Shown piece after piece: positions 23-33,408 of a stretch of 33,905 nucleotides of DNA. Position 1 is the first letter of the stretch; each line of letters starts with the position of its first letter. The notes under the pieces were generated by a model. The model worked only from the letters and a program-made list of their open reading frames with translations, was not told the origin of the DNA and ran no database searches. Source of the DNA: Bacillota bacterium (GTDB taxonomy: Bacteria > Bacillota > Limnochordia > DTU087); assembly GCA_012519025.1 (NCBI GenBank), contig JAAYQZ010000030.1, positions 1 through 33,905 on the forward strand, read 5' to 3'. Made by a program: the position numbers and the translations under genes.

Positions 23-1453
23 TCAGTGCCGCTCTGTAGCATAGGAACTAGACGAAATGGTATCACCCATTCCTACTGTGCTGACAGGGTTGGCCACAAT
101 GTGGGCCGGTGTCAAAAGTAGATAGTGATCATCAAACTCCAAATAGCCCTCTGTCAACAGATCACTTGCCTGGGGATGCTCACCTTTAAGCCCCTCGGCA
201 AGGGCAGCAAGCTGCTTAAATCCTACATCAGACAAAGCCAGCTCTACTGCTTCTTGAAGCTGTGCCGTTTTCGCATAGCCGCCATATTTAGCCTTCATGG
301 CATTGACAGCAGAAGCATACAGACAAGACTGCCGCACATCTTCCATTGACACGGGGTACGGTTTGCTTAAAATCACAACATAATAACCCAGATTGTGTAA
401 GTGCAGGCGGTTGAGCTTCATATGCCTAAACAGGGCCAAAGCACCTTTATAAAGAGTATATGCGTTTTCGTCATCTTCAATGGCCTGCATTTGTGATTCA
501 TAACCGAATTCCCGCAGTACCCGCTTAACCTCGTTCTCATTAATGCCAAAGCTTTTGATCTCTTGGCAAATCGCTGTAAGCATCTCCGGCTCCAATTCAG
601 GCCTTTTCATTGGCACATATTCAAAATGGAACATCAAATCCGGATTTTGCTTTTTTAGACTTTGCAACTGTTGGACACTATCTTCCACAAACTCATCAAA
701 AGTCCGCCCACAACTGTTCATGGGCTCCGCGTAATGATAACCGGCCATAAAAGCAATATCAATATTTTCCCCAAGTTTTGGCAAATGGGGTATAGTTTTT
801 TGGTCGAAACTCATGATGGAGCCCTGCGGCCGAGTTGCTAAAATCACTCGATTGGCCCGGGGTGTTGTGACTGTATCGTCACCAAAAGCAACAGCCTCAC
901 CTTTGGCATATTCAAAAATCCAATTGATTTTTGTTTCATCTTCTGAACGTGCCGCCTGAGACACGGGCAGGATCTCGATGTCATCACCAGTCAACACCGG
1001 TGTAGCGACACCATCTGCAAACAATTTAGCCTGCTTCGCGGATAAGAGCGGTGTATAAACTACTGAAGTGGCCCCAAGGCTGGCCATTTGATTGGCAATA
1101 ATCCCGGCTTGTCCCCCCATATTTTCCCGGGCGCCGGTAAAGTATTCATCAAGCCAATCTAAGAGGGAAAGCTCTTCCAAAACTATGTGGAAGGACTTGC
1201 CACCGGCCAAGCAGTCTTTCAAAATGACTAAAAGATCCTCTTTGCTTCTGACAGCAGTAATCTCCTCCGCTTTACCGCCGGTCACTTTTTCCCAAGAGAT
1301 ACTTGTATCCCTTGCTTTTATGTCCTCCATCAGCGTTCCTGTAATGTGGACCACTGCATCAATATTTGTATTAAAAGCAGCAAATACTCTGGACCTTATT
1401 TGCCGCTGACATGCTTCTTGCAAGTATCCACGCCACAAATTCTTATCTACCAA
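23..1453 (-). CDS. ADP-dependent sugar kinase (ADP-GK/ADP-PFK family), paralogue 1
   Basis: Predicted to phosphorylate a sugar (glucose or fructose-6-phosphate) with ADP as phosphoryl donor, in the cytoplasm. From the TTG start the protein is about 476 residues. It shows NTNID near 28-32, an MGGQAG glycine-rich stretch near 112-117, HFE at 276-278 (the HxE motif of ADP-dependent kinases), NENE at 305-308 (NxxE, metal) and GMGD at 461-464 (GxGD, catalytic Asp464). I chose TTG at 1453 because GGAGG lies exactly 8 bases upstream (1462-1466) and the length then matches the 473-residue paralogue at 31987-33408. An in-frame ATG at 1528 would add 25 residues but has a weaker site. It is the last gene of the long minus-strand run, after the radical SAM gene. 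Family membership is firm; the substrate cannot be read from sequence. Confidence 0.88.
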   Translation of the reverse strand: MVDKNLWRGYLQEACQRQIRSRVFAAFNTNIDAVVHITGTLMEDIKARDTSISWEKVTGGKAEEITAVRSKEDLLVILKDCLAGGKSFHIVLEELSLLDWLDEYFTGARENMGGQAGIIANQMASLGATSVVYTPLLSAKQAKLFADGVATPVLTGDDIEILPVSQAARSEDETKINWIFEYAKGEAVAFGDDTVTTPRANRVILATRPQGSIMSFDQKTIPHLPKLGENIDIAFMAGYHYAEPMNSCGRTFDEFVEDSVQQLQSLKKQNPDLMFHFEYVPMKRPELEPEMLTAICQEIKSFGINENEVKRVLREFGYESQMQAIEDDENAYTLYKGALALFRHMKLNRLHLHNLGYYVVILSKPYPVSMEDVRQSCLYASAVNAMKAKYGGYAKTAQLQEAVELALSDVGFKQLAALAEGLKGEHPQASDLLTEGYLEFDDHYLLLTPAHIVANPVSTVGMGDTISSSSYATERH

Positions 1454-1563
1454 AGTGCTTCCCTCCATACAGAATAATGTGGGAAACCCAGGAAACCTGA
1501 CTCCCCTTCCTTCACTTTTCGACAACATTAATGTTTCCCCTGCCGAACTAGTCTATATTTGCT

Positions 1564-2436
1564 TTACAATCCTACATTGCCCAGGTAAACGAAATCCAGC
1601 CATTTACCGGCCAAAGCCCGCGCCCGCTTCAAAACATCTGTTGGTGTCGCAGGAATCTCCAATCGGTAGCTGGGGAAATACCTAGAAAAATGTACGGGTG
1701 TATCTGCTCCCAAATTATTATATACCCAGCGGGCAAAGCCCTCTAAACTAGCATCATCATCATTGTGATCCGGAATAACCAAATATGTCAACTCAATATG
1801 GCATTTATCTTTGGCAGCCGCCAGGTTATCCAAAACCGGTCCTAGCCTGGCTCCACACATTTTACCATAAAAGTCATCATCCCAGGCCTTTACATCCACA
1901 TTAAGGGCATCAATATGCTGTATAAGCTCATCCCAGGGCAGCCGACTGAGATAACCGTTGGTAACCAAAACTGTTTTCAACCCCGCCGCCTTAAGCAGTG
2001 GTGCGGTCTCTAAGATAAACTCATACCATATTAAGGGTTCGTTATACGTAAAGGCCACCCCGACACAGCCGTCACTTTGATGGGTTTTGGCAAGATTTAA
2101 AACATCCTTGGGGACAATTGGCCTTGCTTTTCCCTGGGTTTGGGATATCTGCCAATTTTGACAAAACAAACAGCGTAAATTGCAGCCATACGAGCCTAAA
2201 GACAAAATACTGCTGCCGGGATAAAAATGAAATAAAGGCTTTTTCTCAATAGGATCTAAAGCAATAGAGCTGACAATTCCATAGCCTTCCGCAACCAGCA
2301 TCCCGTCACGATTGCGCCGCATGCGACAAATCCCGCTTTTCCCGGGCAGCACCAAACATCGATGGGGACACAGCTCACAGCGAACACCATTATTCTCTTT
2401 ATGGGAATACATTGCCGGTTTACCTAGCAAATGCAA
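1564..2436 (-). CDS. amrS: AmmeMemoRadiSam-type radical SAM enzyme, short C-terminus
   Basis: Radical SAM protein of the AmmeMemoRadiSam system; its reaction is not established as far as I know. The 290-residue product has an N-terminal cysteine motif (C20, C23, C27, C37) followed by conserved DPIEKKPLFHF text, and the radical SAM CxxxCxxC at C85, C89 and C92, which binds a 4Fe-4S cluster and SAM. The start is TTG at 2436, 6 bases past the stop of the upstream MEMO-AMMECR1 gene; an ATG at 2412 is a shorter alternative. The family usually continues some 30-40 residues past the conserved Gly-Asn-Val with a CPxCG-like end. Here the protein stops two residues after Gly-Asn-Val, and no continuation is seen downstream. 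It is translated between the MEMO-AMMECR1 fusion and an ADP-dependent kinase. Confidence 0.88.
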   Translation of the reverse strand: MHLLGKPAMYSHKENNGVRCELCPHRCLVLPGKSGICRMRRNRDGMLVAEGYGIVSSIALDPIEKKPLFHFYPGSSILSLGSYGCNLRCLFCQNWQISQTQGKARPIVPKDVLNLAKTHQSDGCVGVAFTYNEPLIWYEFILETAPLLKAAGLKTVLVTNGYLSRLPWDELIQHIDALNVDVKAWDDDFYGKMCGARLGPVLDNLAAAKDKCHIELTYLVIPDHNDDDASLEGFARWVYNNLGADTPVHFSRYFPSYRLEIPATPTDVLKRARALAGKWLDFVYLGNVGL

Positions 2437-2442
2437 AACACT

Positions 2443-3858
2443 TCACTCTTCCTGAAAACGCTTAACTTCAAATCTATATATGTTGGTCATGTCATGGGGT
2501 TTAATGCCGGCTTTATTTTTGGCAACGGTAAGTTGCTCTGCACCGGTTTGAATTCCTTCCAGATCCGGCAGCAGAAGACCCTCCCGGCCGCCCGATTCCA
2601 CAATCACCCCGAAACGTTTGGGATCTAACTCATCAACATCAGTCACTTTTTCAGGGCATCCCAAAACATCGACTGAATAGGTTAAAGCAGCAAGCTCACC
2701 GGGGACAACCGGTTGGAACCGCGGATCCCTTGATGCCGCTTGCCCAGCAGCGTAAACCACTTCTTCCAAAATATTCGGTTGTGTCGGCCGGATAGTGCCT
2801 ATACAACCCCTCAACATGCCGCATTTCTCAATAGAGACGAACACTCCCGCTCGCTTGGGCAGACCCAAGGGCAGATCGTCCAAAGTCGGCGTTGGCGGCG
2901 GCAGGTTTTTGGCTGTAGCTTCCACAGTATTGCGGGCCAGTTGGACCAGAAATTGTCCCTCTGAGTCACTTCCGGCACCCTGTGTCAACGATGACACAAG
3001 ACGCTCATACACATCCCCATCAGTGGAGTATAACGCACATACACCGTAGCCTACCCCGAAAGGTCCTTCATAGGACAACGGAAGTGCTGCCAGTTTACAT
3101 GACTCCCAGCACCCCAAAATCATCACAAGAGGCCGATATCCACACTCACCGGCCTCCCGAATAAACGCATCATCCAAATTAAGTAAACCTTTCACATCGG
3201 CATTTTCCAAAAGGTGCCACAGTTTTTCATCAAACAACCTACCTACAGGAGAATATCCCCCCGGTGCATCTTCGGTCAGCCGGTGGGATAAATCTCCACT
3301 GGCAATAACAACTGCTCGGCGGCGGGAATTTTCCACAGCCTGCCTAAGCAGCCGACCGAATTCATACAACTGTGGAATAGACAAAAAGCCCACACCCACC
3401 GAAAGCAGGGACGCCCTAACTCCCGCCTCTTGTAAATAATAAAGAGGAACCAATGTCGCATAATCGAGTTCAGGAGGCCAACCGCTGTTTTTGCCACCAC
3501 TGCTGTTTACTTCTCTAAGTGGATAGTCTTTAGTCTTACCAATATCAAATAGGGTCTCAAAAAGTTCAAGGTCATTTGTAAAATTAAGCTTAATATGGGA
3601 GGCACCAAACTGTCCGAAATCTCCCTGTAGAACCTTTTCGGAACGCACTCCGATTCCATCCGCCAATAAAGGACCATGTGGACTCACTACTATGACAACA
3701 TCAGGTTCCAGCTCTTTGACTGCACGGGCCAAACGCTGCATGGCCATAACGGTCGATTTTACTTTTGCTAAAGCCTCTTTACCTATTTCCGGAATAAGCA
3801 GCGCCGGATGAGGTGTAAGGGCCCCCATAACCACTTCTCCACAAACCTTTGTATTCAC
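2443..3858 (-). CDS. MEMO-AMMECR1 fusion protein (AmmeMemoRadiSam proteins B and A)
   Basis: Two-domain protein of 471 residues. Residues 5-280 form a MEMO/class III extradiol dioxygenase-like (LigB-fold) domain with candidate metal histidines H17 (TPHPALL), H61 (SPHGP) and H192 (GDLSHR). Residues 300-470 form an AMMECR1 domain with the signature LRGCIG at 349-354. The two families are separate proteins in humans (MEMO1, AMMECR1) and fused in many Firmicutes; their bacterial role is unknown. The start is GTG at 3858 behind a strong AGGAGGTG site 8 bases upstream; an ATG overlapping it at 3860 is out of frame. The downstream radical SAM partner starts 6 bases after this stop, so the two are almost surely co-translated, and the three AmmeMemoRadiSam domains are all encoded here. 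Confidence 0.9.
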   Translation of the reverse strand: MNTKVCGEVVMGALTPHPALLIPEIGKEALAKVKSTVMAMQRLARAVKELEPDVVIVVSPHGPLLADGIGVRSEKVLQGDFGQFGASHIKLNFTNDLELFETLFDIGKTKDYPLREVNSSGGKNSGWPPELDYATLVPLYYLQEAGVRASLLSVGVGFLSIPQLYEFGRLLRQAVENSRRRAVVIASGDLSHRLTEDAPGGYSPVGRLFDEKLWHLLENADVKGLLNLDDAFIREAGECGYRPLVMILGCWESCKLAALPLSYEGPFGVGYGVCALYSTDGDVYERLVSSLTQGAGSDSEGQFLVQLARNTVEATAKNLPPPTPTLDDLPLGLPKRAGVFVSIEKCGMLRGCIGTIRPTQPNILEEVVYAAGQAASRDPRFQPVVPGELAALTYSVDVLGCPEKVTDVDELDPKRFGVIVESGGREGLLLPDLEGIQTGAEQLTVAKNKAGIKPHDMTNIYRFEVKRFQEE

Positions 3859-3889: not shown

Positions 3890-4951
3890 CTAGCCGAGAA
3901 TTCGCTTTTCCACATATGGAGATGTCGTTACTCCCAGCAACCCACCGTAGTCAAGTCTAAATTCCAATAAATCGCCGGGTTTCACCGATATCTCGGCTGG
4001 GTCTACCGCTAGAACTGTATGGTCACTTGTCATACCTAAAACCTCAATTCCCGCATGCTTCGGATATAGACGCCCGGCACCCAAATCCTGTCTGCCCAAA
4101 GCCACTATAGCCCGCAAATGTGTGCCGAAATCTTTGAAAACTAGCTTGTCATCGAAAGCATTTTTCAAAACTGTGCCGGTGGGCAAACTTGGCTTGTAAT
4201 TCATCTCTATGACTTCCCCAAACAGCCGAAACGCATCTTGGCTTGTCCCTGCAATTGGCTCGTTTGTCAGTACATCCTTACCCAAAAGAATGCTTTCCCC
4301 GAACCGCAAATGTGCCGGTATGGAAAGCCCCGGCCACTTCTTTTGGATAATCAACTGCAGGCAGCTGCTGTTGCCGGCGGATAATACCAAAGATCGGTTG
4401 TTCTCGAAATAATTCATAAGCATCTCTTCAAGCCGGATGATATGCTCAGATGTCGGGCTGACCCCGGCAAAACAAGCCATGTTGATGGCTAACCCTTTCA
4501 CCTTCACCTCCGGCAAAGACCTGATACCGCAAAACAAAGCTTCTAATGAGTCGGGCATAACACCCTCCCGCCGGTCCCCCATTTCCACCACAGGAATGAT
4601 CCCAACGGTCTTCTGTTTTCCGACGCTTCGGGCCAAAGCTTTAAGGTAAGTTAGATCAGAGCACAAAATCAGATCAGCCACCATCACTGCTTCTGCCATT
4701 TCACCGAAAATAGGGCTCCGTAGAAGCATCAATTTCGTACCAATACCGCTTTTTCTCAGTTTGACCAAATTAGCCAAACGGGAATCAGCCAAACCCACTA
4801 CCCCACCGGCCAGCATGGCACGGGCTGCCCCGGGAAGACCGCATACGCCTTTGGTTACTCCAATTACATCCACATTTTCTTTACGGCAGTAATCAGCTAT
4901 TGTTTTGGTATTGTGATAGATGTCCTGCAGATGGATATCCAAATAAGCCAC
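3890..4951 (-). CDS. Alanine/ornithine racemase-family PLP enzyme
   Basis: Fold-type III PLP enzyme related to ornithine racemase and predicted amino-acid racemases (COG3457-like). With the preferred start it has about 353 residues. The Schiff-base lysine is K34 in the segment VIGVTKGVCG, and the rest follows the TIM-barrel plus beta-domain pattern, ending with a PGDLLEF motif near 330-336. GTG at 4951 is chosen because GGAGG (4960-4964) lies 8 bases upstream; GTG at 4957 would put it only 2 bases away. The gene sits 31 bases after cwlD and 31 bases before the MEMO-AMMECR1 gene. Its substrate could be alanine, ornithine or another amino acid; no adjacent ornithine-degradation gene favours one. 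Confidence 0.8.
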   Translation of the reverse strand: MAYLDIHLQDIYHNTKTIADYCRKENVDVIGVTKGVCGLPGAARAMLAGGVVGLADSRLANLVKLRKSGIGTKLMLLRSPIFGEMAEAVMVADLILCSDLTYLKALARSVGKQKTVGIIPVVEMGDRREGVMPDSLEALFCGIRSLPEVKVKGLAINMACFAGVSPTSEHIIRLEEMLMNYFENNRSLVLSAGNSSCLQLIIQKKWPGLSIPAHLRFGESILLGKDVLTNEPIAGTSQDAFRLFGEVIEMNYKPSLPTGTVLKNAFDDKLVFKDFGTHLRAIVALGRQDLGAGRLYPKHAGIEVLGMTSDHTVLAVDPAEISVKPGDLLEFRLDYGGLLGVTTSPYVEKRILG

Positions 4952-4982
4952 AAACACTGCCTCCCCAGATTAATCAACCGGT

Positions 4983-5729
4983 TTACCGTTTCAAGATTTT
5001 CGATGATTTTGATCTATAATACCGCAAGATCCCATGATAAATCGCTTCCGCCACTCGGATTTGGTAATCGGGCTCTGCCAGCAGTTTGGCTTCTTTAGGG
5101 TTGGACAAAAAACCCACTTCTACAACGACCGCGGGCATATGTGTGTCCTTGATAACGCGATAATCTCCTGCATTGGCTTTTCGACGGTTGGGACCAAGCC
5201 TTGCTACAAGCTCGGTTTGGATGGCAGTCGCTAAAAGCTTACTTTCCTCCCGTCCCGGGTAATAAAAGACCTGGGCACCGGACCAAATTGATTGAGGAAA
5301 GCTATTGCAGTGGATGCTGATAAACAAGTCGGCTTTTGCCTGATTGGCTAAATCCACTCTTTCCAGCAGATCCTGCCGTTTTCGAGTAAGCAAAACATCT
5401 GCGGAGGAATCAGCTGAATCATCGGCCTCTCTCGTCAGTATAGTAAATACACTGGCTTGGTTGAGAAATACCTTCAGGTGTTGAGCAATATCTAATACGA
5501 TATCTTTTTCCAGGGCTCCATAGATAGATACTGCACCGGGATCATATCCACCATGGCCGGGATCGATCACAATAAGCTGCCCTGAGATCATTTCTCGCAA
5601 AGCCGTTTGGGCAGGCAGTAAGTGTCTTTGATCGGCGTAAAACGCCAAAACTCCCAACAAAACCAACACTAAAATCCCTACACAAATGCGTCGGCGCGTT
5701 ATGTGGATAACCACAAATCTACCTGTCAT
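4983..5729 (-). CDS. cwlD: N-acetylmuramoyl-L-alanine amidase, CwlD-like
   Basis: Zinc amidase of the Amidase_3 family. In Bacillus CwlD removes the peptide from muramic acid so that muramic-delta-lactam, the mark of spore cortex, can be made. From ATG 5729 the product has about 248 residues: an N-terminal membrane anchor (about 15-31), then IDPGHGGYDPGA with zinc ligand H59, E74, H140 (SIHCNS) and the C-terminal VVEVGFLSN with catalytic E204. An in-frame TTG at 5807 would add 26 residues ahead of the membrane segment and has no good ribosome site, so I prefer the ATG, which gives the usual CwlD length. Its neighbours and the germination operon in the same window fit a spore role. A vegetative amidase is the alternative. 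Confidence 0.87.
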   Translation of the reverse strand: MTGRFVVIHITRRRICVGILVLVLLGVLAFYADQRHLLPAQTALREMISGQLIVIDPGHGGYDPGAVSIYGALEKDIVLDIAQHLKVFLNQASVFTILTREADDSADSSADVLLTRKRQDLLERVDLANQAKADLFISIHCNSFPQSIWSGAQVFYYPGREESKLLATAIQTELVARLGPNRRKANAGDYRVIKDTHMPAVVVEVGFLSNPKEAKLLAEPDYQIRVAEAIYHGILRYYRSKSSKILKR

Positions 5730-5812
5730 AATATCCAGCCCCCAGTCTGCAGCAAGGCACCGGACATTCAGCCGGTTCCTATCTACAGACTTATGCGGCG
5801 AACGCAAAGATA

Positions 5813-6439
5813 TTATTCAGGACTCGATTCTTCTTTAAAGGCAGCAAACACTCGGTATCCGCCGCCTTTGTCAATTGTTTTCACCCGAGCATAATTGTCT
5901 ATCAAATGTTGTTTTAGACTTTTGGCACCCTGTTTGGTGCGAATTACAACACAAAGTACACCTCCCGGCAGGAGGTGCTGTTTCGCTCGCACTAAAAGCG
6001 AATAGACAACCTGCTTACCGGCCCTGATCGGAGGATTAGCAGCTATTAACGAAAAATCGCGTTCTTTTACAACTTGGAAATCCTCACCCCAGCGAACATC
6101 GACAACTACACCGTTCAGTCGGGCGTTCTCTTTTGTTAAATCCACTGCCCGGCGATTCACATCAACCATGATGACATCAAGCTGTGGTTCTGATCCAACT
6201 GCAGCAATACCCACAGGCCCGTACCCACAACCTAAATCTAAAAACCTTCCCTGTTTAGGCAGGGGCAGAGCCTCAATAAGTAAACGGGTGCCACGATCAA
6301 CGCGCAAACGAGAAAAGACTCCTGCTTCTGTAAGGAAGCGGTATTCCCTGCCCCGCAGCAGTGCCGTGATTTCGGTTTGTGCAGATGGAGAGCTGGGTTC
6401 CTTAGAAAAATAATGTTCCGGTTTAGCTTTTCTGTTCAT
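5813..6439 (-). CDS. ybxB: Class I SAM methyltransferase, YbxB/RsmC-like
   Basis: Small-domain methyltransferase (MTS family, 208 residues) resembling Bacillus YbxB and the C-terminal half of RsmC, which methylates guanine in 16S rRNA. The SAM site is DLGCGYGPVG (about 68-77), and the catalytic NPPY-type motif is NPPIRAGK (about 135-142), with Ile replacing the usual Tyr. The N-terminal HYFSKEPSS and GVFS segments match the YbxB family pattern. The start is ATG at 6439 with an AGG-rich site upstream. It lies 15 bases after the YhaM-like gene and its stop is 83 bases before the CwlD ATG, so it is probably in the same transcript. The RNA target is inferred only from family resemblance. Confidence 0.83.
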   Translation of the reverse strand: MNRKAKPEHYFSKEPSSPSAQTEITALLRGREYRFLTEAGVFSRLRVDRGTRLLIEALPLPKQGRFLDLGCGYGPVGIAAVGSEPQLDVIMVDVNRRAVDLTKENARLNGVVVDVRWGEDFQVVKERDFSLIAANPPIRAGKQVVYSLLVRAKQHLLPGGVLCVVIRTKQGAKSLKQHLIDNYARVKTIDKGGGYRVFAAFKEESSPE

Positions 6440-6454
6440 ACCGGCCCTACCTTT

Positions 6455-7447
6455 TTACAATTCGTTTTCGGGGAAGTCAGTCTTTTCTTGTCCTCCCATA
6501 TATAAAGCCCGGCCTAATCGCTTATCGTAGTTTGTCCATGTTTGACCGGGAGCACCAGCTGCCAAGATCTCCATATATTTGCTGACCTGCCCGTCTAAGT
6601 TATCAGTATAATGCAGTATACAGGCCTCAACTGTTTGAGGTTCTTTTGGCGATCCCCAGGCCAGTTCACCATGGTGACTGAGCAGCATGTGGTAAATACG
6701 CAGGGCCTTTTCGGGCGGGAAACCAGGTAAGCTTTCTACTATTTCGCTGACCAATTTATAGCCCATGGATATATGACCCAAAAGGCGGCCTTCATCGGTG
6801 ATTTCAATACCGGCGGCAAGAGCATACTCTTCAACTTTTCCCACATCATGCAAAAGGGCCCCCGTAATTAAAACATCCCGATCAACCCGTGGGTAAAGCT
6901 GTACAACAGTGTCGCAAAGCCGCGCTACATTTAAAGTGTGCTCCACCAGCCCACCCACATATGCTTGATGCATAGAGCGAGCCGCCGGAGCCTTGGCAAA
7001 TTCGGTCAAAAAGTCCCCCGTGAAAACAGCCTCAAGTAAGCCGCGGCAATCGGAATCAATAATACTCTCTATAAGGTTCGAAAGCTCTGAAGTCATCTCT
7101 TCAATATTGCGAGTGCTGGTGGGCAAAAATTTATCAATGGAGTACTGACCGGGTAAAGATTTATGCACTTGGCTGCAGACTATCTGCAGGCTGTCCCGAA
7201 ACACCGTCACTCTACCCTCGACTTCGATGACATCTCCAACATTCAACTCTGCCGCTAGTCTTTCCCCTTGTTCCCAAACGATGGCACGGATATCTGCTGT
7301 TTTGTCAGATAACTGCATTAGCAGAAACCGTCCCGGTTTGGAAGAAAAGGGGATCAACTCTTTGCGACTCAGCAAATAGTGCCCCCTCACATCACTGCCT
7401 GCCATCAAATCTTTAATTTCCATAAATATTGGGCCAACCAAATACAT
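6455..7447 (-). CDS. yhaM: HD-domain 3'-5' exoribonuclease, YhaM-like
   Basis: Protein of 330 residues with an N-terminal OB-fold nucleic-acid-binding domain (about 15-95) and a C-terminal HD metal-dependent domain (about 150-315). HD residues seen are H170 (GGLVEHT), H200-D201 (LLHDVGK), H258/H259 (LLSHHGE) and D282. In Bacillus YhaM trims RNA, and also DNA, from the 3' end. The start is odd: ATG 7447 is fixed by an in-frame TAG directly upstream, but the strong GGAGG is about 21 bases away, much farther than normal. ATG 7423 has no visible site. Translation may depend on mRNA folding or on coupling to the upstream gene. Confidence 0.85.
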   Translation of the reverse strand: MYLVGPIFMEIKDLMAGSDVRGHYLLSRKELIPFSSKPGRFLLMQLSDKTADIRAIVWEQGERLAAELNVGDVIEVEGRVTVFRDSLQIVCSQVHKSLPGQYSIDKFLPTSTRNIEEMTSELSNLIESIIDSDCRGLLEAVFTGDFLTEFAKAPAARSMHQAYVGGLVEHTLNVARLCDTVVQLYPRVDRDVLITGALLHDVGKVEEYALAAGIEITDEGRLLGHISMGYKLVSEIVESLPGFPPEKALRIYHMLLSHHGELAWGSPKEPQTVEACILHYTDNLDGQVSKYMEILAAGAPGQTWTNYDKRLGRALYMGGQEKTDFPENEL

Positions 7448-7497
7448 CTAAACAGATGCCGGCCCACACCTCCTAAAACTGCCGGATACATATTTTT

Positions 7498-8949
7498 TTA
7501 CAAATCAGACACTCCCAGCTTTTCCAACCGTCGGAGTTCATCTTTAGCCTGGGTAAGACCGGGGTCCAAGTTGAGCGCCTTTTCCAAGTGCTCTTTAGCT
7601 TTAACAATTCTAAACTCCACACTGTAGGCCATGCCCAAGTGATAATGGACTGTGGCTTGATCCCAGCCGGCCGCTTCATCTCCCATGAGTGCCAATGCCT
7701 CTGTCAATTCGCCAACAGCGGCTTCATAATCACCGAGTTTAAAATACGCCCATCCCAAAGTATCTCGAAATGCACCGTTGCCCGGTGATAGTTCTACTGC
7801 TTTTTCGGCCATTTCCAACGCCTTCTGCAGATAAATGCCGCTGTCTATATAGATATAAGCCAGGTTGTTGTACCCCAGGGGATCTTTAGGCGCCAGCATG
7901 ATAACTTGCTCAAACTCAGCAATCGCGCCTGCCTCATCACCGCTTTCTATATAAGCATAGCCCAGATTAGAATGCGCGGCAACATTATAGGGATCAATGG
8001 CAACAATCTTCTCAAATTCCTTAACCGCGGAATGGTAGTTCCTGGCAAGCAAAAAAGCGGTTCCCTTGGCAAAGGCGGTGCGTAAAACTTCAAATTCTTC
8101 TACATAAAATAACTCATCAGGCAAAGTAACATTGAAATCCAAGTTGGTAAACTGTTGGGCGATGGACAAACCGGCTCCTTCCACACAAACTTCCCTGGGA
8201 AACCAAACGTTGTTATCAAACCGAGCAAGATCCATTCTCATACGGGCTTCTTCGGGACCCATTTCCACCAACTCAGCAACCATACCAACAATTTGACCAT
8301 AATCGTTAGCATCCAGTGAAAGAGCTTTAAACTCTATAGAAGCGAAGGGAGTACCTAAACCGGTGATCCGCAGTGGAAGATAACTGGTGGAATCAATCCA
8401 AAACACCGTATTTTGCCACAAGTCCGGGCGGTTCTCCACGGGTTCCAGCTCAACAGCATATACCATGCGCTCTAGATATTCTTCCTCACCGGCTAAGAAA
8501 CCTCGACCTCCTACGGACAGCCATTCCAATGAAGACAAGACCAGATCTGTCACCAAAGGCAAACCCAACTGACCGGGATCATGTATAATGCGGGGCCGCG
8601 GTGTACCCGCTTGATAGTGGGCAACCAGCTCTCCATCGGTAATGATCGTGGAAGATGCGGCAGTGCCCGGTTCTATGTAATCGAGTCGAAAATGGTCCCC
8701 ATCTTTGACCATAAGATCTCCCTGCAGCAATTTGAGATGGAGTCCATTTTCCTCAATAGAAAACGTTATCTGACCGGTCAAGTCCGTAGCCACGTTAAAT
8801 TGCCCCGCCATCTTTGCCAGTACACTATCACCGTCTAAGCCCACAGTGCCGTTTTTGGCCTGGGCAAATGTCCCACCTAGGACCAGCAAAACCGCGGCAC
8901 TCAGGCAAAGGGCAATCGGAAAAACGCGCCTAGATAGATAAATACCCAA
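7498..8949 (-). CDS. Secreted LolA-like domain and TPR repeat protein
   Basis: Exported protein of about 483 residues. It has a signal peptide (SRR n-region, hydrophobic core, cleavage after an AQA motif near residue 31). Residues about 40-290 resemble the LolA/outer-membrane lipoprotein carrier-like beta fold, and about five tetratricopeptide repeats (about 292-475) follow, with typical NLGYAY, NNLAYIY, TLGWAYF and HLGMAYS helices. No lipobox cysteine is present, so it should be released or held by protein contacts rather than lipid-anchored. TTG at 8949 is preferred because AGGGGAG lies 7 bases upstream and the signal peptide then starts cleanly; TTG at 8973 is the longest ORF. It shares a gene run with cwlD, which recalls the LolA-like GerS partner of CwlD in Clostridioides difficile. 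The LolA assignment rests on fold-like pattern, not a motif. Confidence 0.72.
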   Translation of the reverse strand: MGIYLSRRVFPIALCLSAAVLLVLGGTFAQAKNGTVGLDGDSVLAKMAGQFNVATDLTGQITFSIEENGLHLKLLQGDLMVKDGDHFRLDYIEPGTAASSTIITDGELVAHYQAGTPRPRIIHDPGQLGLPLVTDLVLSSLEWLSVGGRGFLAGEEEYLERMVYAVELEPVENRPDLWQNTVFWIDSTSYLPLRITGLGTPFASIEFKALSLDANDYGQIVGMVAELVEMGPEEARMRMDLARFDNNVWFPREVCVEGAGLSIAQQFTNLDFNVTLPDELFYVEEFEVLRTAFAKGTAFLLARNYHSAVKEFEKIVAIDPYNVAAHSNLGYAYIESGDEAGAIAEFEQVIMLAPKDPLGYNNLAYIYIDSGIYLQKALEMAEKAVELSPGNGAFRDTLGWAYFKLGDYEAAVGELTEALALMGDEAAGWDQATVHYHLGMAYSVEFRIVKAKEHLEKALNLDPGLTQAKDELRRLEKLGVSDL

Positions 8950-9012
8950 TCTACATCTCCCCTTACAAATCAATCAAATGACCATCAGCACATCACGGCC
9001 GACCGGGCCCGG

Positions 9013-9813
9013 TTATCTCATGGAAATCTGGGCAACAGAATCCAAAACATACGTCGGAACTATGTCAGATGCCTGCAGTATATCCTTATCTGTAACACCG
9101 GTCATGACCAAAGCCGTGTCCAGCCCAAATTCCTGTCCCATTAAAATGTCTGTTTCTATGCGATCGCCGACCATAAGACACTGAGATGCTTTTAGATTCA
9201 GCACATTTAAAGCTACTTCAACAGTAATGGGACTTGGCTTGCCCACAATAAGCTCAACTTTGCGGCCGGTTGTCCCTTCTACTGCCCCGATTACTCCACC
9301 GGCATCGGGTATTTCCCCACCTTCCACAGGGCATGTTCGATCACCATTGGTAGCAATTAATCGGGCTCCTTTTTTCACACACTGCAAAGCCCGATCCAAC
9401 TTTCTATAGTGAAAAGTCCGATCAAAGGATAGAATAACATAATCCACTAAGTAGCCGTTCAATTCCGGTTCTAAAGTGTAGCGAATTCCGGCTTCAGCCA
9501 GATCATCCAATAAGGCCTGCTCACCTACGACATAACAAAGAGCCTGTGGGTTGTATTCCCTTAGATACTTGCCCAAAACAAAAGATGAATTGATTACACT
9601 GCGAACATCGGTAGGTATGCCGAGTCTGGTAAGTTTTGCGGCATAATCATATCTAGTTTCGATGGGCTTGTTTGATAAAAATAAGATTTGTTTGCCGGCT
9701 TCCCTAAGTCCCTCGATAACCTGTTGTGCCCCCGGCAAAAGTCTGTCCCCTAAATAAATGGTGCCATCGAGGTCAAAAATGTAGCCATCATACAACCGCA
9801 TCTTCCTAAACAT
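9013..9813 (-). CDS. HAD-IIA sugar/nucleotide phosphatase, NagD/AraL-like
   Basis: Cytoplasmic phosphatase of 266 residues. The HAD nucleophile motif is FDLDGT (D14, D16), motif II is FLSNKP near 45-50, the C2-type cap lies between, and the C-terminal motifs are VGKPSP and MVGDRIETDI near 195 and 220. This order is that of the NagD/AraL/p-nitrophenylphosphatase branch, which acts on small phosphorylated sugars or nucleotides. It starts 2 bases after the GlpP stop, with a GAGAGGG site upstream, so the two are translationally close. In Bacillus-type genomes such HADs serve metabolite repair or sugar-phosphate relief. A glycerol-phosphate-linked role (phosphoglycolate or glycerol-phosphate phosphatase) is attractive beside GlpP but unproven. 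Confidence 0.85.
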   Translation of the reverse strand: MFRKMRLYDGYIFDLDGTIYLGDRLLPGAQQVIEGLREAGKQILFLSNKPIETRYDYAAKLTRLGIPTDVRSVINSSFVLGKYLREYNPQALCYVVGEQALLDDLAEAGIRYTLEPELNGYLVDYVILSFDRTFHYRKLDRALQCVKKGARLIATNGDRTCPVEGGEIPDAGGVIGAVEGTTGRKVELIVGKPSPITVEVALNVLNLKASQCLMVGDRIETDILMGQEFGLDTALVMTGVTDKDILQASDIVPTYVLDSVAQISMR

Positions 9814-9815
9814 TT

Positions 9816-10448
9816 TTACGTCCCTCTCCCCGTTTTAGACCAATCCCAAAGCTCTACTCGACTGGTGGATACTGCCACGGCAGGACCGGCCAAAATTGCT
9901 TTTATTTCCTCGACTGTTTCCACGAGCCCACCTGCTATTATAGGCGGCATTGAGTCAACAGGAAGCCTTTCTTTAAGGGAAGGCAGCACCAAAGCCGGCA
10001 AAATCTCCACGGCATCAGGTTCACTTGATCTTAGAATATTTAATCCTGTCTTTACAGCCTCCGAATCCAGAGCAAACAACCGCTGGATAGCCAACAAGTC
10101 AGTATCCTTAGCTGCGCGAATGAGGTTGCTTCTTGTGGTCACAATACCGTCTAAAGGCATGCGCTTTGCCAGGTAGTTTACGGCAGCGGCGTCTTTGCCC
10201 AGACCGGGAATGAGATCTATATGTACAAATGCGGCTGTATCGTTTTCGGCTTTAATGGTCTTTATTATGCTCTCCAGTTCTAGAATGCTGCCGCCCAGAA
10301 TAAAAAAAACATTCATTCCCTTAGCCAGTGCTAAGTTGACGGCGGCAGAGTCTCTAAGACCGGCGATGACCGGATTCTCAACAAGTTTCCTAAGTAAATC
10401 TCTTTTTGTATTCAACTTTAGGACAATTCCCCTTTCGGGCGTTATCAT
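9816..10448 (-). CDS. glpP: Glycerol-3-phosphate-responsive antiterminator GlpP
   Basis: RNA-binding antiterminator family. In Bacillus, GlpP with glycerol-3-phosphate binds the glpD leader mRNA and prevents termination. The product has about 210 residues and shows the family text NPVIAGLRD, HIDLIPGLGKD, DGIVTTRSNLI, QRLFALDS, EILPA and PPIIAGGL, in order along a TIM-barrel-like chain. ATG 10448 follows a CAGG site 7 bases upstream; the longest ORF begins at TTG 10487, which would overlap the preceding gene by 14 bases. No glpF, glpK or glpD is present in the window, so the usual target is elsewhere or the regulator serves another leader. It sits between the folate gene and the HAD phosphatase gene. 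Confidence 0.87.
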   Translation of the reverse strand: MITPERGIVLKLNTKRDLLRKLVENPVIAGLRDSAAVNLALAKGMNVFFILGGSILELESIIKTIKAENDTAAFVHIDLIPGLGKDAAAVNYLAKRMPLDGIVTTRSNLIRAAKDTDLLAIQRLFALDSEAVKTGLNILRSSEPDAVEILPALVLPSLKERLPVDSMPPIIAGGLVETVEEIKAILAGPAVAVSTSRVELWDWSKTGRGT

Positions 10449-10473
10449 GATTTTACCTGCTGCTTGCGGTTCA

Positions 10474-11037
10474 TCAAACTGCAACAACCTCTTTTTCCGT
10501 AATCACTAGATCAACTGGTACATCATGGGCTGCTTTGGGGAGGGTGTCCATAAGCTGTATGTGAAAACAGATGCCTATCTTGCAGGTATTGGGGACATTT
10601 GATAAAAATCGATCATAATATCCGGCACCATAACCAATGCGATTTCCCTGCCGATCAAAGGCCAACCCGGGCACCACCACAATGTCCAACACATCCGGTG
10701 AAATGGGCTGATTGTTGCGGGGAGGTTCCAGTATGTCCCAATGCCCTACCACAGCCTCTTCTTTACGGGAAATCGGGTAAATAAGCAGCTCTTTGGTGGC
10801 CGGTAAACAAACTGGAGCAGCAATTGTTTTGCCTTGCGCGACTCCGTGTTCCAAAATACACCATGTGTCAACTTCGCTGCCAAAGGCAAGAAATAGCATA
10901 ATCACTGCGGCTTGCTGTGCAACCGGCAGGGAAAAAAGCTGTTCTTTGATGGCATGACTAAAAGCCTGCCTTTTGTCTTTTGGCAATTGATTGCGCAGGC
11001 TCAACAGTTTTTTGCGAATGGTCTCTTTATCTTGCAT
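10474..11037 (-). CDS. 5-formyltetrahydrofolate cyclo-ligase
   Basis: Converts 5-formyl-THF to 5,10-methenyl-THF using ATP, recycling a storage or inhibitory folate. The 187-residue protein has the N-terminal basic helix (RKKLLSLRNQL) that contacts ATP, and the family signature VPGLAFDRQGNRIGYGAGYYD near 121-141 with the GYGxGYYDR substrate loop. Length and motif order are normal (YgfA/MTHFS family). ATG 11037 follows AGGGGGAG. There is a 64-base gap to the upstream ymfH-like gene with no clear promoter, so it is probably part of the same run. Folate recycling supports purine, thymidylate and formyl-methionine synthesis. Confidence 0.9.
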   Translation of the reverse strand: MQDKETIRKKLLSLRNQLPKDKRQAFSHAIKEQLFSLPVAQQAAVIMLFLAFGSEVDTWCILEHGVAQGKTIAAPVCLPATKELLIYPISRKEEAVVGHWDILEPPRNNQPISPDVLDIVVVPGLAFDRQGNRIGYGAGYYDRFLSNVPNTCKIGICFHIQLMDTLPKAAHDVPVDLVITEKEVVAV

Positions 11038-11101
11038 AAACTCCCCCTAGCTTGAATTTCCCTCCACCCCGCTTAGGATTGCTGAAGCCCTGCTTAAAAC
11101 T

Positions 11102-12424
11102 TCACATAGGTATCACAGTGGAAATTGCCAAGTTATCTTCGATTAATTGGCTGTGAAGATATCCCTCTACATCATCTAAGGTAATCTCCTGCATCATATC
11201 CAAATATGAGAACAGCGAACTGCCCTTAAAGTGGATAGATATGAAATTACTCGCGATAAAATCCAATGCATTGAAAGCATACAAGAATCCGCCTATTGAC
11301 TTCCTTTTTTGCTTTGTAAATTCCTCCCGTTCAATACCCTTCTCCCTTGCTTTCTGCAATCCTTTCAAAATTGATGCTGCGAATTTCTCCGGATCGTCAG
11401 TAGAGCCTCCCACTACGGCGTGTGCGAAATTCCTCTCAGCAGTATAGTGGACTCCGAAACCTAAATCAATGAGTCCGTTCTCGTAAAGATAGCTGTATAA
11501 CGCTGATGTCTTGCCAAATAGGATCTGCAGGGCGAGGCTCCCTATAAGCTGGCGCTTGAGCAGTTCATTGCCGTTTTGCAGACAGTTGTCTTTAAACCCC
11601 AAATAACATAAAGGTCGTGCTACTGCCATCGCCATCTCCACACTTTGTGCCTTCACACTAAAAGGTTCTGCTTTGTGGATGCGGCGCACTACGGGAGAAC
11701 TGTTTTCTTCAGCCTTCTGGGCTGCAGTTTTCCCAAGCTGTTTTTCTGCAAGCTGAAATACTTCCCCCGGCTCTACTTCCCCAACAACGAACAATACCAT
11801 GTTCTTTGGATGGTAAAACGCTTGATGACAAGCATACAAAACCTCCGGAGTGATGCGGCCGATAGAGGCAGTGGTGCCGGCGATTTTTTCTCTCACATTA
11901 TTGACATGATACACAGCATTCATCAGGTTGGTAAATACACGGTGTCCAGGTTCATCTTCAAACATCGTAATTTCCTGAGCAATAATGCCCCGTTCCTTTT
12001 CTACGCTTTCAGGGGTGAAATACGGTGTCATAACAAAATCTAAAAGCAAGGCCAGACACTGTAGAAAATTATCTGTAGTAGAAAAGAGATAACTTGTCAA
12101 AGTATAACCTGTATACGCGTTGACTGATGCCCCCAGCCCCGCAAATTCATCAAACACATTGCCTTTTGGATTTTCAAAAAGCTTGTGTTCTAGAAAATGC
12201 GCTACACCCGGCGGTGTGGATGCAGCACCACTTTTATCGTCAAGCATAAAATCTGTATCAATGGCTCCATAGCGAGTGGCAAACATCGCGTATTTTTCGT
12301 TATAACCTGATTTTGGCATCACATACATATCCAGCCCAGAGGAGGTTTTTGCATGGTGATATTCTTCCTGCAGAACTTCACTCTTGACAGCACCAAGTGG
12401 TTTGATTTTGGTTGAGATACCCAC
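11102..12424 (-). CDS. ymfH: M16 zinc metallopeptidase, YmfH-like (catalytic partner)
   Basis: Pitrilysin/M16-family peptidase of 440 residues. The inverted zinc motif HxxEH is present as H76-F-L-E79-H80, with the downstream E and the GASVNAYTGYTLTSY segment usual for the active half. M16B enzymes act as pairs of an active and an inactive half; the gene upstream supplies the inactive half. The start is GTG at 12424, which shares one base with the upstream stop (TAGTG), and GGGGG lies 9 bases before it, so translation is coupled. No signal peptide is visible, so the peptidase should be cytoplasmic. Processing-type roles are known for relatives; the substrate here is unknown. Confidence 0.88.
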   Translation of the reverse strand: MGISTKIKPLGAVKSEVLQEEYHHAKTSSGLDMYVMPKSGYNEKYAMFATRYGAIDTDFMLDDKSGAASTPPGVAHFLEHKLFENPKGNVFDEFAGLGASVNAYTGYTLTSYLFSTTDNFLQCLALLLDFVMTPYFTPESVEKERGIIAQEITMFEDEPGHRVFTNLMNAVYHVNNVREKIAGTTASIGRITPEVLYACHQAFYHPKNMVLFVVGEVEPGEVFQLAEKQLGKTAAQKAEENSSPVVRRIHKAEPFSVKAQSVEMAMAVARPLCYLGFKDNCLQNGNELLKRQLIGSLALQILFGKTSALYSYLYENGLIDLGFGVHYTAERNFAHAVVGGSTDDPEKFAASILKGLQKAREKGIEREEFTKQKRKSIGGFLYAFNALDFIASNFISIHFKGSSLFSYLDMMQEITLDDVEGYLHSQLIEDNLAISTVIPM

Positions 12425-13719
12425 TAGTCCATACCCCCTTGGAATGCATTTTCTCCTTCTTCACCTTGCAGGAAATAGATGGTATCAAGTTGGAGTTGTT
12501 CTCCTATTTCTACCAAGTCTTCCACAGTTACAGCTTTGATGGCCTCTATAACATCTTCCGCCTTGCGCCGGACATCTTGAGTAGCTTCAACTATGCCGCG
12601 ATCGATTATAGATATGGCACTGTCTTCCATTGTCAAGAAACTGTTCACCAAACCGCGTTTTGTTTGTTCAAGCTCCCAAGAAGTGACACTGCCCGCATCT
12701 AAAGCATCCACTTCCTGCAGGATAATCTCCAAAGCTTCATTGTATCTGGAAGGTGGAATACCAGCATTAATCATAAGAAACCCTTTGTTGCCATCAACTC
12801 TTGCAAAAACATAATAAGCAAGACTTGCTTTTTCTCTCACATTGCGAAACAGCTTTGCATGGGGAAACCCACCTAAAACACCGCTATAGACCAGCAGCTT
12901 GTAATAATCGGGGGAGCTGTACGTAATTGGAACACGATAACCTAAAAACAATATGCCTTGTCTAAGCTGTTCTTGTTCAACAACAGTCTTCAACTCCTTG
13001 GGAGTATGGGATCTTGCGTCAATCGACAGTGGCCTAAAACCATTTCTAAGCTCGCCGATTGCATTCTGCCACTGACGGTGCAAAGCACCGTGATCTATAT
13101 TCCCGACAACAAAAATCTCAATGGGGTTTTGGGCCAACAAGCTGCGGTAGTGAGTCAAAAGCTCGGAATCACTAACCGTATCCAATCCTTCCAGTCTACC
13201 GTATTTGTAAATGGCAAAAGGCTCTCCTTCAAACATAATCTCGATGAATCGCTTTAAGGCGTAACTGCGTTTATTATCAATAATACTGCGAATTTGGTTG
13301 CGCAGATTGGATACTTCCTGTTCCACAAACGGCTTGTAGAATCCACTGCCCTCAACCCGGGGTTGGGTGATCAACTCTGCCAAAGCATCCATGCCCTGCC
13401 GCAGTAATTTTTCCCCATTTTGTCCCAAGTAAGATCCATCAGCAATTTCGAAGTAGTAATCAATCAGCTGGTATTCGCCAAGCTTAAGCACACCTGCACC
13501 AAACCGTGCCCCGTAAAGATCTGCAAGATGGGAGGCAATGTGCTGCATCGTCGGCAATCTTCTGCTTCCACGGGCTATTATTTGCGGTACCAGCGCGGTT
13601 TCAGTTGCTTCTGACCCAAGCTGATGTTGAATAAAAACTTTGCACGTTACAGTCTTAAATTTCCTTGTCGGCAAAACATGTAAGCGACATCCTTCAGTGA
13701 GCATTGCTGTTTGAAACAA
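12424..13719 (-). CDS. ymfF: M16 peptidase-like protein, YmfF-like (non-catalytic partner)
   Basis: M16-fold protein of 431 residues that lacks HxxEH: the region where it should lie reads VPQIIARGSRRLPTMQHIASHL, split here as VPQIIARGSRR and LPTMQHIASHL, with no zinc pair. The C-terminal half keeps the conserved Arg/Tyr region (REKASLAYYVFAR) that completes the active site of the partner chain. It overlaps the ymfH-like gene by 1 base, the normal ymfF-ymfH arrangement. TTG 13719 is supported by AAAGGTGGG 8 bases upstream; ATG 13704 is a shorter choice. It is the first gene of the long minus-strand run, facing nifU across a 221-base divergent region. Confidence 0.85.
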   Translation of the reverse strand: MFQTAMLTEGCRLHVLPTRKFKTVTCKVFIQHQLGSEATETALVPQIIARGSRRLPTMQHIASHLADLYGARFGAGVLKLGEYQLIDYYFEIADGSYLGQNGEKLLRQGMDALAELITQPRVEGSGFYKPFVEQEVSNLRNQIRSIIDNKRSYALKRFIEIMFEGEPFAIYKYGRLEGLDTVSDSELLTHYRSLLAQNPIEIFVVGNIDHGALHRQWQNAIGELRNGFRPLSIDARSHTPKELKTVVEQEQLRQGILFLGYRVPITYSSPDYYKLLVYSGVLGGFPHAKLFRNVREKASLAYYVFARVDGNKGFLMINAGIPPSRYNEALEIILQEVDALDAGSVTSWELEQTKRGLVNSFLTMEDSAISIIDRGIVEATQDVRRKAEDVIEAIKAVTVEDLVEIGEQLQLDTIYFLQGEEGENAFQGGMD

Positions 13720-24795: not shown

Positions 24796-25830
24796 CTAGG
24801 GGGTCAGTGCAGACTGCTCAATCTCCTCAATAGATACAGGACGGTTCTCCCCCGCCGACATGGCAGCCGCCTTGGCGATATATAAAGCATGAAGGCCATC
24901 TTCGCCTGTAACCGGCGGCTCTTCATTTGAAGTTACAGCGGTGATAAAATCGCAAAGCTCCATGCGAAAAGAGTCCATATATCTCTCTAAGAAGAAGTAT
25001 AAGGGCTTATCGGTATAAACCCCCTGTTCTGTACTGATCTCCACATCAGTTGGCTTTTTATTATAAGCTGTCGCACTTCCTTTTTGACCAAAGACTTCTA
25101 CCCTCTGGTCGTATCCGTACACTGCCTTACGGCTGTTGTCAATCACACAAACTGCTTGATTGGCAAACTTCAAAACCACTACTGCACTGTCATAATCACC
25201 TACTTCAGCAATTGCAGGTTCGATTAAAACACTGCCTACCGCATATACTTCCGTTACTTCACTTCCGGCGAGATAGCGAGCCATATCAAAATCGTGAATA
25301 GTCATATCCATGAAAATACCGCCGGACGCTTTCACATAAGATATAGGTGGTGGAGCAGGATCACGGGACGTGATTTTAATAGAGTGAACTTCTCCCAGGG
25401 CACCTTCCCGAACCAAGGTGTGGATTTTTTGGAAATTGGGATCAAACCGCCGATTAAAACCAAGCTGAAGTTTAACTTTGGCTTTCCTAACAGCCGCAAG
25501 TGCCTTTTTAGTTTTAACAATGTCGTTGGCTATAGGTTTTTCACAAAATATATGCTTTCCTGCGTCAGCAGCTGCAATAATTTGCTGGGCATGCAGATCC
25601 GTCGGCGAACAAATCAGTACTGCATCGATATTTTCATCGGTAATAATCGCCATCGGATCATTGGCCACGTTGGTGATCCCGAATTTCCCGGCCCACCGCT
25701 TTGCCTCATTTACGTTAATATCCGCAACAGCTGCAACTTCTGCATTGGGCACTCCGTAACAAAGATTCTCGATATGAATTTTCCCTATACGCCCCACACC
25801 GATCACACCAACCCTTACCTTTTCGGCCAT
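24796..25830 (-). CDS. iolG: Gfo/Idh/MocA dehydrogenase, inositol 2-dehydrogenase-like
   Basis: NAD(P)-dependent sugar or cyclitol dehydrogenase of 344 residues. The Rossmann motif is GVGRIG (11-16), the EKP motif gives catalytic K98, and D175 and H179 in FMDMTIHDFDMARYL match the Asp and His of Bacillus IolG (K97, D172, H176). The sequence around GGIFMDM is characteristic of the myo-inositol 2-dehydrogenase branch. ATG 25830 follows GGGGAG. It is the third gene of the GH4-kinase-dehydrogenase unit. No other iol gene is present, so its true substrate may be a related sugar or scyllo-inositol rather than myo-inositol. Confidence 0.82.
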   Translation of the reverse strand: MAEKVRVGVIGVGRIGKIHIENLCYGVPNAEVAAVADINVNEAKRWAGKFGITNVANDPMAIITDENIDAVLICSPTDLHAQQIIAAADAGKHIFCEKPIANDIVKTKKALAAVRKAKVKLQLGFNRRFDPNFQKIHTLVREGALGEVHSIKITSRDPAPPPISYVKASGGIFMDMTIHDFDMARYLAGSEVTEVYAVGSVLIEPAIAEVGDYDSAVVVLKFANQAVCVIDNSRKAVYGYDQRVEVFGQKGSATAYNKKPTDVEISTEQGVYTDKPLYFFLERYMDSFRMELCDFITAVTSNEEPPVTGEDGLHALYIAKAAAMSAGENRPVSIEEIEQSALTP

Positions 25831-25868
25831 GTTTCTCTCCCCTTCCCTCTGCAGCTAGATCCCTTTAT

Positions 25869-26852: not shown

Positions 26853-26864
26853 TTTATTCCTCCT

Positions 26865-31986: not shown

Positions 31987-33408
31987 TTGGTGTCTATACA
32001 GGCAATATGGAATGGCCTTTACGAAAAAGCCGTCCACAACAGTCGCACCAGCTTTGAGTCTGTGCCCGGCGTTGCCTTGGGGTTTCATTCCACCATCGAT
32101 GGCTTAAAGCGGGTTGTCCCTCAAAAAATCGAAAATATCCTGGCCGAAGATCCCGCATTAGCCGAGGAGGTTCTAAACCGCCTAGGGAACGTACCCACTG
32201 AAATTTGCACCCCGGCTGATCTTCTAGTTGGGTTAATTGATTCCCTGCAAAACGGGAAAGCACTGCAGCTTATGATCAGAGAGGAAACCACCTACAACTG
32301 GATAATGGAGCATCTAGGTTACGACAACCTTCGCATGGGCGGTACTTCAGGCAATATGGCCAACTCTTTGGCACCTTTGCCTTTGCCCAAGCTACTGGTT
32401 TATGCCAATCCTTTGACTAAAGAACAGGCTGAGTTATTTGTTGACTCAGACAACCTTTTTGTCTTAAATGCTGACGGTAAACTGCAAAGCCCCCAAACCG
32501 CGTGGCGCGGCGAGGGCATCTATGCCATTCATTGGATTTTCGAATATCCGCAAGGCCTAAAACTAAATGTCGGGGATAAGGTCATACAAGCACCGAGGGC
32601 AAATCGCTTTATCGCTGCATGGAACCCCATCAACAACAAATTACAGCTGGAACCCAATTTTGTTAAGCATCTGCCCAGAATCGCCGATGACTTCAGCCAT
32701 TTTATTATATCAGGGTTTCATATTTTGTCTGAGGAATATCCCGATGGAACCACTTGGGAAACCTATTTAAGACCTGTAGCGCGATTTTTGCGGGAAACAA
32801 AAAAAGAGCATCCTGATCTTCGCTTACACTACGAATTTGCCTCTATCGCAAGTCCCAGCATCCGTAAAGGCATTGTTGATCACATCTTACCCACAGTAGA
32901 CAGCCTGGGCCTCAACGAAATGGAACTGGCTGCGGTTTTGCGGGATCGAGAAGAACCTGAATTAGCGGAAGAAATCGAGAAGCAAAGCTCTATGGCTGCT
33001 GTACTTCGGGGGCTGGAGAGACTTGCCGATGGTACAGGCCTGCGCCGCATTCAACTGCACGATCTCGGCTATTACCTGGCCTTGGTGGAGCAGGACTATG
33101 TAAGCGGTGAACTGTGCAGGGATGGTATGCTTTTTGGTGCAGTTCTTGCAGCCAGCCGATCTAGTATTGGCAAGGTAGGCACTTGGGACGAGATCCTGAC
33201 TGGGTTGGAAGTGCCCTTAGCCAAAGGAACGGAAGCAAGGCTTCAGGCATTGTCCAAAGCACTGGAATGTGATGAGTTCGCCGGCACAGGTATAGGCCGC
33301 AAAAACGGTCGTTATATTGTATTTGTACCCACGAAAATTGTGGAGGATCCTGTTCTAACCGTGGGATTGGGAGATTTGATCTCATCATCTGCCTTTATCT
33401 TAGGCTAG
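31987..33408 (+). CDS. ADP-dependent sugar kinase (ADP-GK/ADP-PFK family), paralogue 2
   Basis: Predicted ADP-dependent kinase of 473 residues. HYE at 281-283 (HxE), NEME at 310-313 (NxxE) and GLGD at 460-463 with Asp463 are all kept, and HWIFEYPQG, PRANR and QLHDLGYYLAL align by eye with the paralogue at 23-1453. The sugar-side motif differs: HSTID near 34-38 instead of NTNID, and MGGTSGN instead of MGGQAGI. The two are clearly diverged, so substrates may differ. TTG 31987 has GGGAG 7 bases upstream; GTG 31990 is in frame and equally possible. A weak candidate promoter (ATGCCG, 17 bases, TATGAT 31947-31952) lies upstream. It is a single-gene unit ending at a hairpin. Confidence 0.87.
   Translation: MVSIQAIWNGLYEKAVHNSRTSFESVPGVALGFHSTIDGLKRVVPQKIENILAEDPALAEEVLNRLGNVPTEICTPADLLVGLIDSLQNGKALQLMIREETTYNWIMEHLGYDNLRMGGTSGNMANSLAPLPLPKLLVYANPLTKEQAELFVDSDNLFVLNADGKLQSPQTAWRGEGIYAIHWIFEYPQGLKLNVGDKVIQAPRANRFIAAWNPINNKLQLEPNFVKHLPRIADDFSHFIISGFHILSEEYPDGTTWETYLRPVARFLRETKKEHPDLRLHYEFASIASPSIRKGIVDHILPTVDSLGLNEMELAAVLRDREEPELAEEIEKQSSMAAVLRGLERLADGTGLRRIQLHDLGYYLALVEQDYVSGELCRDGMLFGAVLAASRSSIGKVGTWDEILTGLEVPLAKGTEARLQALSKALECDEFAGTGIGRKNGRYIVFVPTKIVEDPVLTVGLGDLISSSAFILG

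Follow-up and report, generated by a model that had tools for sequence, protein, structure and literature searches.

We conclude that the MEMO-AMMECR1 fusion and its radical SAM partner AmrS, on the one hand, and the adjoining ADP-dependent kinase (KinA), on the other, probably constitute two independent units lying side by side, and that the kinase does not work together with the module. The pairing of the module and KinA looks positional rather than functional. The functional link put forward in the original prediction, in which the kinase shares a substrate or a modification step with the module, is not supported, because KinA and the module have different neighbours, separate distributions, and a separate control element in front of KinA. 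The association of MEMO, AMMECR1, and radical SAM genes is widespread and already known, and its function is unexplained; our literature search returned 'AmmeMemoRadiSam' only as single mentions. The comparison reported here thus removes a tempting but probably wrong clue to that function, since the adjoining kinase would belong to another unit. The module itself being known, the leader of KinA and the ADP-dependent kinases found throughout the class (Limnochordia) are the more interesting parts.

The gene row and its conservation within the family

The window (the whole stretch of DNA that was analysed, 33,905 nucleotides) is one entire contig of a 2.4-Mb genome (G000) that is 98.6% complete. 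Profile matches confirmed the identities and coordinates proposed for the racemase (Rac), the fusion, AmrS, and the kinase, which follow one another in this order, 5' to 3', on the minus strand (Table 1), with gaps of 31 b between Rac and the fusion, 6 b between the tightly coupled fusion and AmrS, and 110 b between AmrS and KinA. The last of these gaps, as originally given, is correct when KinA starts at the TTG codon that stands behind the Shine-Dalgarno (SD) sequence GGAGGGA. A start at ATG 1528, which would shorten the gap to 35 b, was discarded because the upstream frame is not kept open in two relatives (G001 and G002). Rac scored below the cut-off of the ornithine racemase (Orr) model NF040742 (281.9 bits compared to 480).

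Table 1. Coordinates of features in the window, with the matches or remarks that identify them
Feature	Position	Strand	Remarks
KinA, ADP-dependent kinase	23..1453	-	PF04587 1.2e-67; 476 aa; TTG start at 1453; GXGD catalytic motif; gene runs to base 23, right at the contig edge
KinA leader element	1454..1543	-	10 family genomes, single copy in each, always directly 5' of KinA
SD of KinA, GGAGGGA	1460..1466	-	
GTTTCCC segment of leader	1481..1487	-	
TGTCGAA, perfect Spo0A-box core	1518..1524	-	begins at -71 from the KinA start codon
TTGTCGAA box of leader	1518..1525	-	
GCAGGGGAAAC box of leader	1533..1543	-	
AmrS, AmmeMemoRadiSam radical SAM enzyme	1564..2436	-	TIGR04337 295.7 bits; CX3CX2C and N-terminal four-Cys cluster
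MEMO (LigB-fold)-AMMECR1 fusion	2443..3858	-	471 aa; PF02900 2.8e-33 and PF01871 3.7e-39
Rac, Orr-like alanine/ornithine racemase family protein	3890..4957	-	PF01168; NF040742 281.9 bits
Rest of row: CwlD, MTS methyltransferase, YhaM, TPR, HAD, GlpP, 5-FTHF cycloligase-like, two M16 peptidases	4983..13719	-	block kept in the family; partly kept class-wide
KinB, second ADP-dependent kinase paralogue	31987..33408	+	PF04587 2.6e-77; outside the module

The order racemase, fusion, AmrS, kinase is not unique to this genome and recurs throughout the family of the window (f1; 11 genomes compared), being contiguous in 9 of the 11. In the tenth genome (G007), the contig carrying AmrS stops exactly at the KinA start codon. 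In the eleventh (G005, contig C274), AmrS is followed after base 13968 of the locus (L024) by what by eye appears to be the start of an IS200/IS605-type transposase and then by a contig break; elsewhere in the family, the same gap holds only the KinA leader. CwlD, MTS, YhaM, TPR, HAD, GlpP, and further genes are conserved alongside the four genes, which makes the four one section of a longer row that is conserved. A single insertion into an otherwise stable row of genes can give an order conserved throughout a family, although the order seen here could also reflect selection, which counts against regarding KinA as a bystander.

The module and KinA in other families

We compared about 70 related genomes, with class counts taken from 73 genomes; every gene of the window was mapped on kinase loci taken from 15 further families of the class, and the mapping was repeated with 57 named loci. 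In 13 genomes of five families (f2, f7, f13, f14, and f15), the same row ends in Rac followed directly by KinA, with neither the fusion nor AmrS, and some genomes have CwlD followed by KinA without Rac. Elsewhere KinA lies behind argH or an argH-like gene (f3, f5, f11, and f12; argH confirmed by its model for f5 and f11) or, in four further records, behind a gene of the isocitrate dehydrogenase family. The module likewise occurs apart from the kinase. Five f7 genomes (G016, G024, G027, G030, and G037) carry the fusion and AmrS at other loci and have an intact Rac-KinA pair. In f3 the fusion-AmrS pair adjoins argC-argJ-argB; in G021 (L035, 29-5753), it lies beside argC, an argJ-looking gene, and argB; the arginine theme shared by this locus and by the argH neighbours of KinA is loose and probably due to chance. 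In f5, the YhaM-MTS row lacks KinA and includes, after MTS and MurA, separate MEMO and AMMECR1 genes followed by AmrS; the f5 AmrS is the sister of the AmrS of the window's family in the tree (support 98/93). Together, the varied neighbours across these families and the sister relationship of the two AmrS proteins imply that the module and KinA became neighbours through a shared row.

Counts across the class also speak against a functional link. AMMECR1 was found in 21 of the 73 class genomes and an ADP-dependent kinase in 54, of which 34 have no AMMECR1. Nearly all AMMECR1 genomes (20/21) also have an ADP-dependent kinase (Fisher p=0.008, not corrected for kinship); we set this co-occurrence aside as evidence of gene linkage because whole families share both states. 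Among phylum genomes outside the class, two (G073 and G183) have both AMMECR1 and an ADP-dependent kinase, on different contigs.

These distributions bear on the proposal that the fusion, AmrS, and KinA act on one substrate or in a single modification step and form an operon together with the racemase. It accords with the common strand of the genes, with the order kept through the family, with the kinase present in almost every AMMECR1 genome, and with the absence of a terminator from the gaps scanned. We nevertheless judge it very unlikely, since in five families the kinase occupies the same position with no module beside it, the module in f3, f5, f7, and the two phylum genomes has no adjoining kinase, and the gap between AmrS and KinA is long, free in length, and furnished with an element specific to KinA. 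We favor instead the reading in which KinA is the final member of an older row, GlpP-HAD-TPR-YhaM-MTS-CwlD-racemase-KinA; the comparison of loci shows that, in the family of the window, the module came to be placed between racemase and KinA.

A conserved leader in front of KinA

In the family genomes, the stop codon of AmrS is followed by a freely varying stretch of 20-447 b and then by a sharply bounded leader of about 90 b, in which GCAGGGGAAAC, TTGTCGAA, and the SD sequence GTGGAGGGAA follow in this order and the distance from the start of the element to the SD is 76-81 b in all genomes that bear it. The leader pattern occurs once per genome, always just 5' of KinA, in 10 of the 11 family genomes, and a search of f2 did not find it. 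With a looser pattern, other matches in the genomes appeared only at the level of reversed controls, which led us to reject the idea that the leader is a promoter or regulon motif of general use. Within the leader, TGTCGAA is present without change in 10/10 genomes, located at -70 to -74 relative to the KinA start codon. This conservation implies that KinA is probably under its own control. A separate promoter and terminator between AmrS and the kinase had been named as evidence that would speak against linking the two. Neither a sigma-70-type promoter nor a terminator was found beyond chance in this gap in the window and three relatives (L029, L147, and L156), but the conserved element close to KinA was. 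Read-through from AmrS is possible, since the gaps scanned contain no terminator or classical promoter. The gap between Rac and KinA in f7 and f13 contains sigma-A-like promoters at a constant position (TTGTCT-17-TATCAT and TTAACA-18-TATGAT), and KinA in these families thus apparently also has a start of its own.

TGTCGAA is the core of the Spo0A box, and in Clostridioides difficile perfect 0A boxes with demonstrated binding lie at -67 to -82 (PMC3485338). Compared to the Spo0A-regulated promoters of that species (PMC3485338), the KinA leader has an identical core at a similar distance from the start codon; it differs in that the putative target encodes a kinase of the sugar type and belongs to a distant class. 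Every genome searched encodes two Spo0A_C proteins. Counting against a role of Spo0A, the regions upstream of spo0A in the same genomes mostly contain TGCCGAA rather than TGTCGAA. From its motif, position, and conservation, the leader may perhaps place KinA under Spo0A. Because this conserved leader belongs to KinA and carries the Spo0A-box core, it would most likely confer separate control on the kinase, perhaps at entry into sporulation, which makes it directly testable whether sporulation and the ADP-driven phosphorylation of sugars are connected. One speculative extension, to which we give little credence, is that a Spo0A-controlled KinA would act as an ADP-driven kinase of the phosphofructokinase type, so that at starvation, with ATP falling, the entry step of glycolysis would spend ADP instead of ATP, in a class where ADP-dependent kinases are widespread.

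Three other readings of the leader were considered. It might be the core promoter of KinA, such as a sigma-H-like box pair, GCAGGGGAA-N11/12-GTCGAA. The two conserved boxes at near-fixed spacing fit such a promoter, as does the sigma-A-like promoter of KinA in the corresponding gap of other families, but elsewhere in the genomes the pattern occurs only at about chance level, which implies that the box pair is not a common promoter; we regard a core promoter as possible, if somewhat unlikely. A second reading is an RNA switch, in which GUUUCC would have two alternative pairing partners, the upstream GGGGAAAC and the SD GGAGGGAAAC, and would thereby gate translation. The order of the three complementary segments is conserved, the expected pairing of segment 2 with the SD exceeds four pairs in four genomes, pairing of segments 1 and 2 dominates in G003, and an extra A in segment 1 is accompanied by an extra U in segment 2 in G008 and G009. 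RNAalifold, by contrast, recovered neither a shared structure nor supporting covariation, a clear gain in folding over shuffled versions was seen for just one of six sequences (z -2.8), an Rfam search with the leader returned no match, and TTGTCGAA, the most strongly conserved block, is not part of the helices proposed. With no common fold, covariation, or Rfam family, we rejected the RNA switch as a working interpretation and hold it to be doubtful. Finally, the leader could be a target of CsrA, with GGA motifs at the 5' box, the hairpin loop, and the SD through which KinA translation would be blocked. AGGA or GGGA motifs do stand at all three places, and CsrA is encoded in G000 and in 9 of the 12 genomes searched; yet no CsrA was found in G008-G010 (82-90% complete), where the leader is kept, the hairpin is not conserved in all genomes, and the motif is degenerate, which together make this explanation improbable.

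The AmmeMemoRadiSam module and the ADP-dependent kinases

The assignment of the module to the AmmeMemoRadiSam system was upheld by the profile scores of two of its three parts. The AMMECR1 domain (protein A of the system) scored 119 bits against a TIGR04335 cut-off of 99, and AmrS scored 295.7 bits against a TIGR04337 cut-off of 220. The MEMO domain (protein B) reached 24.2 bits, just under the TIGR04336 cut-off of 26, while its orthologues in f3, f5, and f7 reached 36.9, 30.5, and 31.7 bits. As in the known system, all three parts are present and adjacent, with A and B here in one fused protein; the fusion and AmrS are neighbours in f1, f3, and f7. In the tree, the fusion of the window has a branch length of 0.86 compared to 0.25 in its sister from G001, and this long branch, with the MEMO score just below the family cut-off, suggests a fusion that seems to be evolving fast.

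AmrS has the radical SAM motif CX3CX2C as CNLRCLFC, besides an N-terminal Cys cluster, and C85, C89, and C92 are invariant in an alignment of 10 sequences. In the MEMO domain, H17, H61, D189, H192, E238, and C239 are invariant in all 16 fusions aligned. The AlphaFold2 model of the fusion (pLDDT 86.8) matches structures of LigB-type dioxygenases, MEMO1, and AMMECR1, and by Foldseek the MEMO domain of this predicted model is closer to the LigB-type enzymes (3VSH, 1e-17) than to MEMO1 (7.8e-10). The fold and two His ligands are shared with both human MEMO1 (7KQ8, 3BCZ) and LigB-type extradiol dioxygenases (3VSH). At the position of the third ligand, the fusions differ from both by an adjacent Glu238-Cys239 pair, retained as such in 16/16: E238 aligns with the Glu iron ligand E251 of aminophenol dioxygenase, and the evident candidate to match C244 of MEMO1 is C239 (PMC11081632). 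The split MEMO protein of f5 has Gln in place of E238 and retains the Cys. AmrS would generate a 5'-deoxyadenosyl radical from SAM, the MEMO domain would supply a LigB-type iron site formed by His17, His61, and either Glu238 or Cys239, and AMMECR1 is probably the part that binds the substrate; the fusion and AmrS would act jointly on a substrate. Judging from knowledge of these families, our best guess is that the module carries out a redox or radical step.

KinA is predicted to be an ADP-dependent phosphosugar kinase of the ADP-phosphofructokinase type. Its best match among solved structures is AncMsPFK (1.1e-75), and it shares the fold family and the GXGD, HXE, and NXXE motifs with ADP-dependent phosphofructokinases (TIGR02045; AncMsPFK 6C8Z/6XIO, PhPFK 1U2X). 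At the AncMsPFK positions analysed in PMC7948494, KinA keeps N32, N34, D36, Q116, K179, N181, R206, R212, and the catalytic Asp D471 of the GXGD motif, including the fructose-6-phosphate phosphate contacts K179, N181, and R212. Phosphofructokinases and bifunctional enzymes keep these last three residues, whereas E90 occurs only in glucokinases and bifunctional enzymes (PMC7948494). In KinA, K179, N181, and R212 are present and E90 is replaced by His, but the phosphate contact Q244 is His as well; both changes are near-constant in the KinA clade, with His or Tyr at position 90. By the rule, KinA looks like an ADP-phosphofructokinase, and the predicted substrate stays tentative because two sugar-phosphate contacts are changed. 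KinA further differs from the characterized enzymes in scoring 268.7 bits against the cut-off of 408 of the ADP-phosphofructokinase equivalog TIGR02045, and in lying on a separate, long bacterial branch of the tree. A replacement of PfkA by KinA in this genome was rejected, since G000 encodes PfkA, as do 64 of the 73 class genomes. All nine class genomes without a PfkA match have an ADP-dependent kinase (3/3 in f10), and 19/19 genomes without an ADP-dependent kinase have PfkA (p=0.10 for PfkA absence against kinase presence, not corrected for kinship).

To our knowledge, ADP-dependent sugar-type kinases are rare in bacteria. Kinases of the ADP_PFK_GK family were found in 54 of the 73 class genomes compared to 5 of 115 phylum genomes outside the class; our literature search found no paper on Limnochordia with ADP-dependent kinases. 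They often number two or three per genome and fall into three clades, and the differences in their pockets make it probable that the class harbours an ADP-dependent kinase family with several substrates. A fragment of a third such kinase lies at a contig start in the genome of the window (G000:C140:7-90), and the third clade has a pocket that is different again from those of KinA and KinB. In KinB the sugar pocket is remodelled (N32H, N34T, Q116T, K179A, N181H, and R212N), with the residues H T D Q G T A H R N across AncMsPFK positions 32-212; the KinB clade is present in seven families of the class. On the contig of the window, KinB is divergent from a YigZ/UPF0029 gene, and a minus-strand row at 24796-28148, comprising a Gfo/Idh oxidoreductase, a BadF-type kinase, and a GH4 glycosidase, forms a sugar-derivative cluster near it.
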